DNA from: Halomarina ordinaria
GTDB taxonomy: Archaea > Halobacteriota > Halobacteria > Halobacteriales > Haloarculaceae
DNA length: 64,000 nt
NCBI RefSeq assembly: GCF_030553305.1
Contig: NZ_JARRAH010000001.1
Span: 2,666,001 to 2,730,000 of the forward strand
Reading direction: 5' to 3'
Part shown: positions 43,820 to 50,260 of the stretch, piece by piece
Numbering within the stretch: the stretch's first letter is position 1
Layout: each line of letters begins with the position of its first letter
Translations under genes and position numbers: made by a program
The notes under the pieces: model-generated
Seen by the model: the letters and a program-made list of their open reading frames with translations, nothing else
What the model was told of the DNA's origin: nothing
Database searches by the model: none

Positions 43820-45748
43820 ATGACTGAACTCGGCGGTTTCCAAGACCACGTAGCTCGCGTGGACCTCTCCTCGGGGGACGTGGGCTACGAGAGTATCGAC
43901 GACGAGGACGCGAAGAAGTACATCGGGGCGCGCGGCCTCGGCGTGAAGTACGTCTTCGACCAGGGACCGGACGTGGACCCGCTCGGCTCGGACAACCTCA
44001 TAGCGTTCATGAACGGTCCACTCACGGGAACGCAGGTGGTGATGAGCGGGCGCATCGCCGTCTGCACGAAATCGCCCCTCACCGGGACCGTCACCGACTC
44101 CCACCACGGTGGCTGGTCCGGCGCCCGGCTCAAGTGGGCGGGCTTCGACGGCCTGCTCTTCGAGGGGAAGGCGGAGGACCCCGTCTACGCCGTCGTCGAG
44201 GACGGCGAGGTCGAACTCCGCGACGCCTCCCACCTCTGGGGCAAGGGCGTCCACGAGGTCCGCGACACCGTAGAGGAGGAGGTCGAGGGCTCCTACGGCA
44301 AGAACCTCTCCATCATGGCCATCGGCCCGGCCGGGGAGAACCAGGTCCGCTACGCCTGCATCGTGAACGAGGACGACCGCGCCTCCGGGCGCGGCGGCAC
44401 CGGCTGCGTCATGGGCTCGAAGAACCTGAAGGCCGTGGTCATCAAATCGACGACGAAGATGCCCAAGCCCGCGAACCCCGAGACCTTCCGGGAGGGCCAC
44501 CAGCAGGCCATGCAGGTCATCCAGGAGTCCGAGGTCACCGCACCGAACGAGGGCGGCCTGTCGCTCTACGGGACGAACGTCCTGATGAACGTCGGCGAGG
44601 AGATGGACGGCCTCCCGACGAAGAACGGGAAGTACACCTCCACCGAGGCGTACCGCGACGCCGAGGGCGTCGACGTCGACGCCGAGCGCGTCTCCGGCGA
44701 GAACGTCCGCGAGAACATCCTCGTCGACGAGCCGACCTGTCACTCCTGCCCGGTCGCCTGCAAGAAGGAAGTCGAGGTGGAGTACTCGCACAAGGGCGAG
44801 GACATGAACGTCCGGATGGAGTCCTACGAGTACGAGTCGGCCTACGCGCTCGGCCCGAACTCGGGGCACACCGACCGCGACGCCATCGCCGTGATGATCG
44901 ACCAGTGTAACGACCTCGGAATGGACACCATCGAGGCGGGCAACATGCTCGCCATGGCGATGGAGATGTCCGAGGAGGGCAAGTTCGACGACCTCGGCGA
45001 GGGCCTCGACTGGGGCGACGTCGAGTCGATGATCGACCTGCTCGACGACGTCGGCCACCGCGACGGCGCGCTGGCGGACCACCTCGCCGGCGGCGCGAAC
45101 CACCTCAGCGAGGAGTTCGGCGCCCGCGAGAACTCCCTCGACGTGAAGGGCCAGACCATCCCGGCGTACGACCCCCGCTGCCTGAAGGGCATGGGCATCG
45201 GCTACGCCACCTCGAACCGCGGCGCCTGCCACCTGCGCGGCTACACGCCCGCGGCCGAAATCCTCGGCATCCCCCAGAAGGTCGACCCCTACGAGTGGCA
45301 GGGGAAGGGCGAACTCTGTGCGACCTTCCAGGACATGCACGCCATCAGCGACTCGTTCGACATCTGCAAGTTCAACGCGTTCGCCGAGGGCATCGAGGAG
45401 TACGTCATGCAGTACAGCGGCATGACCGGCCTCGACGTGACCGAGGAGGACCTGATGCAGGCCGGCGAGCGCGTCTACAACCTCGAACGGTACTACAACA
45501 ACCTCGTCGGCTTCGACGGCGACGACGACTCCCTCCCCGCGCGCTTCCTGGAGGACGGCATCCCCGGCCAGGGCGCGAGCGAGGGCGAGTACTGCGAACT
45601 CGACGAGATGAAAGAAGAGTACTACGAGCACCGCGGCTGGGTCGACGGCGTGGTCAGCGAGGAGAAACTCGAGGAACTCGGCATCGACATGGGCCCCGGC
45701 ACGGGCGTCACGCTCGGCGATAGCGGCGCCGCGCCCGCGGACGACTAG
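43820..45748 (+). CDS. Aldehyde:ferredoxin oxidoreductase family protein (second AOR)
   Basis: A 642-residue AOR-family protein, slightly longer than Pyrococcus AOR. It has GARGLGVKYVFD, IGPAGENQVRYA and RGGTGCVMGSKNLKA for the tungsten/molybdenum pterin, and complete cluster cysteines Cys307, Cys310, Cys314 (TCHSCPVAC) and Cys516 (FDICKF). The C-terminus ends with a Gly/Asp-rich tail. It probably oxidises an aldehyde with ferredoxin as acceptor. Codon use and acidity suggest a well-expressed cytoplasmic enzyme. It is followed by a T-rich hairpin region that should terminate transcription. Confidence 0.94.
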   Translation: MTELGGFQDHVARVDLSSGDVGYESIDDEDAKKYIGARGLGVKYVFDQGPDVDPLGSDNLIAFMNGPLTGTQVVMSGRIAVCTKSPLTGTVTDSHHGGWSGARLKWAGFDGLLFEGKAEDPVYAVVEDGEVELRDASHLWGKGVHEVRDTVEEEVEGSYGKNLSIMAIGPAGENQVRYACIVNEDDRASGRGGTGCVMGSKNLKAVVIKSTTKMPKPANPETFREGHQQAMQVIQESEVTAPNEGGLSLYGTNVLMNVGEEMDGLPTKNGKYTSTEAYRDAEGVDVDAERVSGENVRENILVDEPTCHSCPVACKKEVEVEYSHKGEDMNVRMESYEYESAYALGPNSGHTDRDAIAVMIDQCNDLGMDTIEAGNMLAMAMEMSEEGKFDDLGEGLDWGDVESMIDLLDDVGHRDGALADHLAGGANHLSEEFGARENSLDVKGQTIPAYDPRCLKGMGIGYATSNRGACHLRGYTPAAEILGIPQKVDPYEWQGKGELCATFQDMHAISDSFDICKFNAFAEGIEEYVMQYSGMTGLDVTEEDLMQAGERVYNLERYYNNLVGFDGDDDSLPARFLEDGIPGQGASEGEYCELDEMKEEYYEHRGWVDGVVSEEKLEELGIDMGPGTGVTLGDSGAAPADD

Positions 45749-48106: not shown

Positions 48107-48388
48107 CTATCCACCCGCGACCGGGGGGAACACGGACATCGTGTCGCCCTCCTCCAGTTCGGTCGCGGTCCCGTCCAGGTGGAGCACCTCGCGCCCGTTC
48201 TTGAGCACGTTCAGCTGTGGGCGAATGTCGCCGACGTCGTCGAGGATGAGGCCTTCGAGCCCGTCGAACTCCGCTTCGAGCGCGGCGAGGACATCCCCCA
48301 CCGTCGCGTCGTCGTCGTACTCCCTCGCGATGGTCTTCGACCCCACCGCGGTGCGGAAGTTCGCGAAGAACCGCAACTCGAGTTCCAT
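48107..48388 (-). CDS. samp3: Ubiquitin-like small archaeal modifier protein, SAMP3/MoaD-like
   Basis: A 93-residue beta-grasp protein: MELELRFFANFRTAVGSK, DDDATVGDVLAALE, LNVLKNGREVLHLDG and the C-terminal PPVAGG with the diglycine needed for E1 (UbaA) adenylation. It closely resembles Haloferax SAMP3. Such proteins conjugate to lysines of targets and some also deliver sulfur for molybdopterin. The start at 48388 lies about 25 bp after a CTTTATG element on the minus strand. It stands downstream of an AOR gene on the same strand, an enzyme type that needs a pterin cofactor. Confidence 0.88.
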   Translation of the reverse strand: MELELRFFANFRTAVGSKTIAREYDDDATVGDVLAALEAEFDGLEGLILDDVGDIRPQLNVLKNGREVLHLDGTATELEEGDTMSVFPPVAGG

Positions 48389-48487: not shown

Positions 48488-50260
48488 TCAGCGCTCGGTC
48501 GTGGCGCGCGTCTCCCCCAGGGGGGTCGCACCGTCGACCACGCTCCCGAGACCGACCCGCTCGATGGTCTCGGCCGTGGGGCGGCCCGCGTCGTCCCACC
48601 CGCGCGCGGCGTAGTAGGCGGTGAGCAGGTCCTCGAACGCGGCCGGGTCGAGCGCCACGCCGTCCTCCCGGGGCGTCGCGAGCGGCGCCGGGAGGGCGTC
48701 GTCGGTGCGGTCGAACCCCTCGCGGACGTTGAACAGGCGCGTCAGCGTCCAGACGCGCTCGCCGAGGCGCGCGAGGTCGTCGGGCGAGTGGTCGAGGCCC
48801 ACCTCGGCGAGGAGCGCCGCGCCGAGGTCCGAGAGCGCCTCGGCCGCGAAGTCGTCGGCGACGAGGCTCCAGACGGCCGACCGGGCGTTCTGCGCGCCGA
48901 CGACGGCCTCGACGCGTTCGGCGGTCGACCAGGTCTCCTCGAACACCTCGCGCTCGACGGGTCGAGCGCGCCGGTGGCAGGCCCCCCGGTCGCTCGTGGC
49001 GTAGGCCAGCGCCATCGCGGGCGCGACGCGCGGGTCGTACCCCGGCATCTCCATCGACTTCACCGTCGGGACGAGCGCCTCGCCGCCGAAGCGTTCCGCG
49101 GCGGCCTCGACCCCGTCGGCCAGCGCGTCGCCGAGCGGCGTCGCGCGGGTCGCTATCTCCTCGACGAGCGCGCGGGCGGCGGCCGGGTCGCCGAAGGCGA
49201 GGTCCCGGTCGAGCGTCCCGTTCTCGGCGGCGCGTATCGCCCACGCGACGGCGCTCCCCGCGCTGATGACGTCGACGCCGAGGCGGTCGCACGTCGCGCC
49301 GAGGTCGGCGACGGCGTCGGCGTCGTCGATGCCGAGGCCCGCCCCGAGGCTCATCGGGGTGGCCCCCCGGGGGACGCTCTCGCCCTCGTCGGTCGCCACG
49401 CGAAAGCCCCCCGGCACCGCCCGGTCGGGGTGCTCGCGGCCGACGCTCCGTTCCCTGAGCGCCTCGACGCCGACGCCCTCCGCCCCCTCGAAGCGCCCCG
49501 CCTGCCAGCCGCGGGTCGCGAGCGCGCCGACGGCGTCGGCGAAGTCGAGGCTCTCGACGGTCTCGCTCGCGGCCTGCCAGCGACCGGTGTCGCCCTCCCG
49601 GTAGGCGCGCTCGTAGCGTTCCCGGAGGGTAGCGAGCGCCGGCGACGGCTCCGGGGGGTCCCCCCGCGCCACGACGGCCTTCAGCCGCTTCGACCCCATG
49701 ACGGCGCCCGCGCCGCCCCGCCCGGCGTGGTGGTCGCCGCCGTCGGTGGCGATGGTGGCGTACGAGACTTCCGCCTCGCCCGCGGGGCCGACGCAGGCGA
49801 CGGCGCCGGAGAGGGCTTCGTCGGTCGCGTGCGCGTCCGCGCCGGTCAGGTCGGCCGCGGAAACGAGCCGTCCCGCGCCGTCCTCGAGGACGAGCGTCGT
49901 CCACTCCTCGGCGCGGCCGGTCACCAGCACGCCGAGGCAGTCGGGGAGCGCGCCGGCGAGCGCGTCGGGGAACGCGCCGCCGCCGTAGGAGTCGAGGAAG
50001 CCGCCGGTGAGCGGCGACTTCGTGACGGCGGCGTAGCGCGACTCGCCGGGGAGGGCCCCCGAGAGCGGGCCGACGAGGAACGCGAGGTGGTTCGCCGGCG
50101 AGAGGGGGTCGACGCCCGGCGCGAGTTCGTCGTAGAGGTACCGCGCGCCGAGGCCCTTCCCGCCGAGGTAGTCGCGTCGCCACTCCTCGGGGACGCGCTC
50201 GCGTTCGACGGTCCCGCCGGTGAGGTCGACGCGCAGGACGCGGTCGCGCACGGTGGTCAT
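48488..50260 (-). CDS. AOR-family protein lacking the Fe-S cluster cysteines (third AOR)
   Basis: A 590-residue, uninterrupted AOR-family protein. It keeps the pterin-domain signature GGKGLGARYLYD, CVGPAGEAEVSYA and RGGAGAVMGSKRLKA, as well as YATSDRGACHRR. The [4Fe-4S] region is replaced: the C-x2-C-x3-C segment of the other two AORs corresponds to REHPDRAVPGG, and the last ligand (GIVC or DICK in the others) to SAVWSL. All four cluster ligands are therefore missing, with no frameshift. The protein may bind pterin but cannot pass electrons to ferredoxin in the normal way. It lies 99 bp upstream of the SAMP3-like gene on the same strand. Confidence 0.9.
   Translation of the reverse strand: MTTVRDRVLRVDLTGGTVERERVPEEWRRDYLGGKGLGARYLYDELAPGVDPLSPANHLAFLVGPLSGALPGESRYAAVTKSPLTGGFLDSYGGGAFPDALAGALPDCLGVLVTGRAEEWTTLVLEDGAGRLVSAADLTGADAHATDEALSGAVACVGPAGEAEVSYATIATDGGDHHAGRGGAGAVMGSKRLKAVVARGDPPEPSPALATLRERYERAYREGDTGRWQAASETVESLDFADAVGALATRGWQAGRFEGAEGVGVEALRERSVGREHPDRAVPGGFRVATDEGESVPRGATPMSLGAGLGIDDADAVADLGATCDRLGVDVISAGSAVAWAIRAAENGTLDRDLAFGDPAAARALVEEIATRATPLGDALADGVEAAAERFGGEALVPTVKSMEMPGYDPRVAPAMALAYATSDRGACHRRARPVEREVFEETWSTAERVEAVVGAQNARSAVWSLVADDFAAEALSDLGAALLAEVGLDHSPDDLARLGERVWTLTRLFNVREGFDRTDDALPAPLATPREDGVALDPAAFEDLLTAYYAARGWDDAGRPTAETIERVGLGSVVDGATPLGETRATTER

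Follow-up and report, generated by a model that had tools for sequence, protein, structure and literature searches.

Haloarchaeal homologues of aldehyde ferredoxin oxidoreductase that lack the iron–sulfur cluster ligands: candidate cofactor-handling proteins associated with formate dehydrogenase and YqeC

What may a protein of the aldehyde ferredoxin oxidoreductase (AOR) family do when all ligands of its [4Fe-4S] cluster are missing? The question is raised by the window, a stretch of 64,000 nucleotides from Halomarina ordinaria, which contains three of the six AFOR_N genes of this genome (Table 1). Two of them encode canonical AORs, the cluster cysteines of which (279/282/286/470 and 307/310/314/516) lie exactly where a preliminary description of this DNA had placed them. 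The third gene was said there to have lost all four ligands within an intact frame, and both statements are borne out: REHPDRAVPGG (from residue 275) and SAVWSL (from residue 461) stand at the ligand sites, the reading frame is uninterrupted, and the AFOR_N (E=1e-61) and AFOR_C (E=6e-87) Pfam domains are complete over the full length of the protein. Its only cysteines are residues 108, 156, 324 and 428, and inspection of the sequence revealed no CxxCxxxC motif. A domain search returned AFOR domains only, and the protein does not belong to the FdhD family.

Table 1. Coordinates of the Cys-less gene, its diagnostic residues and related genes within the window
Feature	Position	Strand	Basis
Cys-less AOR-family protein, 590 aa	48488..50260	-	ATG start; AFOR_N + AFOR_C; AlphaFold2 model; PDB matches
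REHPDRAVPGG (residues 275-285), aligned with the C288-x2-C291-x3-C295 cluster loop	49406..49438	-	alignment
VPRGAT (residues 296-301), aligned with GPEYES; R298 for Glu311, A300 for Glu313	49358..49375	-	alignment
Residues 325-330 DRLGVD, first pterin motif, kept	49271..49288	-	alignment
Residues 425-431 RGACHRR, kept; H429 = PfAOR His448	48968..48988	-	alignment
Second pterin motif in degenerate form, WSLVAD (residues 464-469); W464 for Asp489, D469 for Cys494	48854..48871	-	alignment
Canonical AOR with four Cys, closely homologous to Haloferax volcanii WOR83 (PDB 9q1t, solved)	43820..45748	+	structure/sequence match
Second canonical four-Cys AOR, 553 aa	41224..42885	-	domains, alignment
SAMP1/MoaD-family ubiquitin-like protein	48107..48388	-	NF041918 E=4e-31, PF02597

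Residues were compared in an alignment of 80 members of the Cys-less clade with 41 other AORs, numbered after the P. furiosus AOR; the four cluster cysteines and two pterin motifs are those of the 1aor structure, and the pocket was assessed from aligned residues only. Cysteine occurs at positions 288, 291, 295 and 494 in 0/80 clade members versus 41/41 other AORs, and the same distribution is found for Glu313, the loss of which had been overlooked in the preliminary description. Position 313 is taken by A, G or S and Glu311 is replaced by Arg in all 80 members, while Cys494 is changed to Asp and Asp489 to Trp in 78/78 members having a residue at these positions; F, W or Y instead of Asp489 is also found in 11 of the 41 Cys-bearing AORs. 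R275 and E276 are invariant among 22 aligned orthologues. Arg76 (78/80), Thr243 (80/80), Asp343 (80/80), Tyr427 (76/80) and His448 (79/80) are kept in the clade, as is the first DxxGxD pterin motif. The earlier opinion that the pterin-binding motifs persist holds for this motif and fails for the second, which reads W464-S-L-V-A-D469 in the window protein versus DxxGxC in PfAOR and is changed throughout the clade. Glu313, Tyr427, His448 and Thr243 represent conserved active-site residues of the family (PMC13328260).

Since the new residue pattern (Glu311 to Arg, Cys494 to Asp and others) is conserved across the clade, the cluster site looks remodelled, not eroded, as judged from the alignment. 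The only cysteines conserved in the clade, 156, 324 and 428, were considered as replacement ligands and rejected: many Cys-bearing AORs have them too, and none of them serves as a ligand in PfAOR. No cysteine is newly conserved among the 80 aligned members; this is why a replacement cluster is not indicated, and the suggestion that cysteines elsewhere take over the ligand role fails. A sequencing error at both sites, which had also been considered, is ruled out because the same residues are missing in 80/80 aligned orthologues.

The three-domain AOR fold is predicted with confidence for the window protein (AlphaFold2 pLDDT 96.3, pTM 0.95). The best agreement of the model is with the solved structures of P. 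furiosus FOR (1b25; Z 50.5, rmsd 2.0 Å, 577 residues) and AOR (1aor; Z 48.5), and the matches listed by VIA-align include no high-Z member of any different fold family. The Cys-less protein is similar to these two enzymes in its full-length AFOR_N and AFOR_C domains, in its fold (Z 48-50, rmsd about 2 Å over 565-577 residues) and in possessing the first pterin motif, Arg76, Thr243, Tyr427 and His448. It differs from them in the lack of [4Fe-4S] ligands and Glu313, in the Glu311 to Arg and Cys494 to Asp replacements, in the altered second pterin motif, and in the linkage of its clade to formate dehydrogenase (FDH) and YqeC.

To characterise the clade, 59 related genomes, 84,980 scanned species and 174 haloarchaeal genomes of at least 95% completeness were searched. 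The preliminary description had pointed to a search for a Cys-less clade and its gene neighbours, and such a clade does exist: the gene family is present in 93/174 haloarchaeal genomes, and all Cys-less members found in the species scan and in these genomes are haloarchaeal, those of Haloferax massiliensis and Haloarcula among them. In a tree of 77 proteins, built by a quick method with no bootstrap, the Cys-less proteins represent one change of state (SH-aLRT 100) on a long stem. The nearest relatives (40-46% identity), from haloarchaea (L034, L103, L105) and Bipolaricaulota (L117), keep the four cysteines. Judging from the tree and the alignment, the cluster and the catalytic glutamate were lost once, early in haloarchaea. 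Purifying selection acts on close pairs of the clade, with dN/dS of 0.07-0.28 in pairs with at least 79% identity. In three genomes (G053:C17, G062:C1, G130:C1), the match to the Cys-less gene is split into two adjoining parts, which may reflect a loop insertion or a frameshift.

YqeC is encoded within 10 kb of the Cys-less gene in 62/93 genomes and FDH within 12 kb in 64/93, one or the other being found within about 12 kb in 78/93. Among 46 named loci (flanks up to 9 kb), FDH-like genes occur in 33, YqeC in 22, MobA-like genes in 17 and SAMP1 in 3, while none of these is located near any of six Cys-bearing relatives (0/6), the nearest sisters included. The linked FDHs are of at least three architectures, one of them Tat-exported, and in some loci YqeC and MobA are nearby without FDH. 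In H. ordinaria, YqeC is grouped with two FDH genes about 870 kb away from the Cys-less gene, the neighbour of which is SAMP1. A DUF7124 (PF23439) gene is located directly downstream in 16/43 named loci (L071, L074 and others), often overlapping or abutting the end of the Cys-less gene.

The SAMP1 gene is co-directional with the Cys-less gene and located 99 bases downstream of it. This adjacency is retained in two further genomes of the same genus; however, it is rare among the loci examined and therefore represents a local feature, and SAMP1 was rejected as a defining partner. MoaD-type genes are already known to be associated with archaeal AOR genes (PMC2948915), and WorX, a ThiS-like protein, is encoded near Class I WORs (PMC13328260). 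The SAMP1 gene of the window is of the WorX kind, the difference being its rarity beside Cys-less genes. In the same genome, another SAMP1-like gene (44% identity) is located near a further canonical AOR gene (L037, C1:585000-603000).

The relation to FDH and YqeC is also seen in gene co-occurrence, tested by the Fisher method, which ignores the shared descent of genomes: YqeC is present in 93/93 carriers of the Cys-less gene versus 114/174 genomes overall (p=4e-29), another AOR in 93/93 versus 129/174 (p=1e-19), and an FDH homologue in 92/93 versus 131/174 (p=2e-16). A protein was counted as an FDH homologue if its score exceeded the TIGR01591 cut-off or if it resembled a Tat-signal FDH-like protein; the latter scores 443 bits against the model cut-off of 666, therefore its FDH name rests on best-hit similarity. 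This Tat-type homologue occurs together with the Cys-less gene in 52/53 genomes. Within-genus contrasts show the same tendency, the Tat-type homologue going with the Cys-less gene in 8/8 informative genera and YqeC in 10/10. The Cys-less gene is missing from 39 FDH-bearing genomes, which means that not all haloarchaeal FDHs require it. Xanthine-dehydrogenase-type enzymes, the known context of YqeC, were tested as partners and rejected, since they exhibit no association with the Cys-less gene in the 174 genomes (p=0.88). FDH is present in 112 of the 114 YqeC genomes, that is, YqeC tracks FDH in haloarchaea.

FdhD is the usual sulfurtransferase and chaperone of FDH. A profile search for it (PF02634) gave no matches in the 174 haloarchaeal genomes, although 131 of them have FDH homologues; the same profile detected FdhD in 8/14 control genomes, including M. 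jannaschii, S. acidocaldarius and M. acetivorans. Haloarchaeal FDH is therefore matured otherwise or needs no such sulfuration. YqeC is a presumed molybdenum-cofactor accessory. In the literature, it has been proposed to serve selenium-dependent Mo hydroxylases (PMC2276186), in contrast to its tracking of FDH in haloarchaea.

The usual location of the Cys-less gene beside FDH and cofactor-assembly genes suggests a helper protein for building FDH. The missing cluster and Glu313 speak against oxidation of aldehydes, while the retained cofactor pocket together with the nearby YqeC, MobA-like and FDH genes argues for cofactor handling. Among the three roles offered in the preliminary description (a non-redox pterin enzyme, a cofactor-insertion chaperone, a subunit of the other AORs), cofactor handling is favoured; the partner, however, appears to be FDH/YqeC and not the other AORs, because FDH, YqeC and MobA-like genes adjoin the Cys-less gene in most species and the link with FDH holds inside genera.

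We suppose that an AOR-fold protein lost its iron–sulfur cluster and catalytic glutamate in a single early haloarchaeal event and may have been retained afterwards as a redox-inactive accessory protein. It would still bind a bis-pyranopterin Mo/W cofactor, whole or in part, and together with YqeC would hold, modify or deliver this cofactor, chiefly for FDH, possibly taking over some of the tasks that FdhD performs in other organisms. We give about an even chance to the general proposal that a redox-dead AOR became an accessory that handles tungsto/molybdopterin together with YqeC, mainly in the maturation of FDH. A more tentative suggestion is that this carrier or maturase would form with YqeC an unrecognised FDH maturation system replacing FdhD in haloarchaea. 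The proposed job is analogous to that of FdhD, which is an unrelated family not found in the haloarchaea searched; YqeC and XdhC-type accessory proteins share the genomic company of the Cys-less AOR but represent a different family.

Several facts speak against an accessory role. FDH uses a cofactor of the guanine-dinucleotide type while AORs use bis-MPT, and compatibility of the pocket with the former is presumed. The gene is missing in the 39 FDH-bearing genomes mentioned above, and in H. ordinaria the FDH/YqeC group is remote from it. Moreover, deletion of yqeC in C. difficile results in no obvious phenotype (PMC11448449).

An unlikely alternative, but the first to be weighed, is a non-redox pterin or tungsten enzyme of C1 metabolism, in which the cofactor would act as a Lewis acid within the old pocket and catalyse a hydration, hydrolysis or isomerisation. 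Retention of Thr243, Tyr427, His448 and Arg76 agrees with such an activity, as does the locus of Haloterrigena turkmenica, where the Cys-less gene is located between a FAD-dependent oxidoreductase gene and those for the NADH-binding and alpha (fdhF) subunits of FDH, followed by glyA. This locus adjoins BCCT transporters and may fit a methylated-glycine C1 pathway; dimethylglycine-dehydrogenase-like genes, named by inspection only, flank the Cys-less gene in three other loci. However, Glu313 and half of the second pterin motif are gone, and the commonest shared neighbours are FDH and cofactor genes.

It is rather improbable that the protein is a pseudoenzyme subunit or regulator paired with a canonical AOR such as WOR83. 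The presence of other AORs in every carrier also fits an AOR partner, and a WOR83 homologue is encoded within about 5 kb of the Cys-less gene in the window genome and in one more (G007), but 36 AOR-bearing genomes are devoid of the Cys-less gene (17 of these also lack YqeC), the common neighbours are FDH and YqeC, and the Cys-bearing relatives exhibit no such linkage.

A structural subunit of the FDH complex, as opposed to a maturation factor, is doubtful too: the frequent proximity to FDH genes and co-occurrence with the Tat-type homologue would be expected of it, while the diversity of the linked FDH architectures and the linkage to YqeC and MobA in loci where FDH is not nearby are against it. 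The chances are poorer still for a redox-active aldehyde or formate oxidase in which W-pterin would donate electrons directly to a partner, with no cluster in the enzyme itself: the substrate-side Thr243, Tyr427 and His448 are available, but Glu313, which all 41 other AORs possess, is lost in 80/80 members, and Arg stands for Glu311. Finally, decay or a sequencing artefact, which ligand loss can mark, may be dismissed given the spread over 93/174 genomes, dN/dS well below 1, the new invariant residues and the confident fold.

In a classification of more than 4,000 tungsten oxidoreductases (June 2026), the [4Fe-4S] ligands and active-site residues are nearly invariant and every large subunit is treated as carrying the cluster (PMC13328260). 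The main texts of the open-access literature on haloarchaeal AOR, tungsten, SAMP1, YqeC and FdhD yielded no account of a Cys-less clade in this family, and plasmid records at NCBI name the clade members only as "aldehyde ferredoxin oxidoreductase C-terminal domain-containing protein". A clade that occurs in over half of the sampled haloarchaea and has dropped all these invariant residues, together and once, represents an exception that would surprise specialists. Through its association with FDH and YqeC, culturable haloarchaea become suitable for testing how FDH maturation proceeds when FdhD is lacking, and what role YqeC plays.
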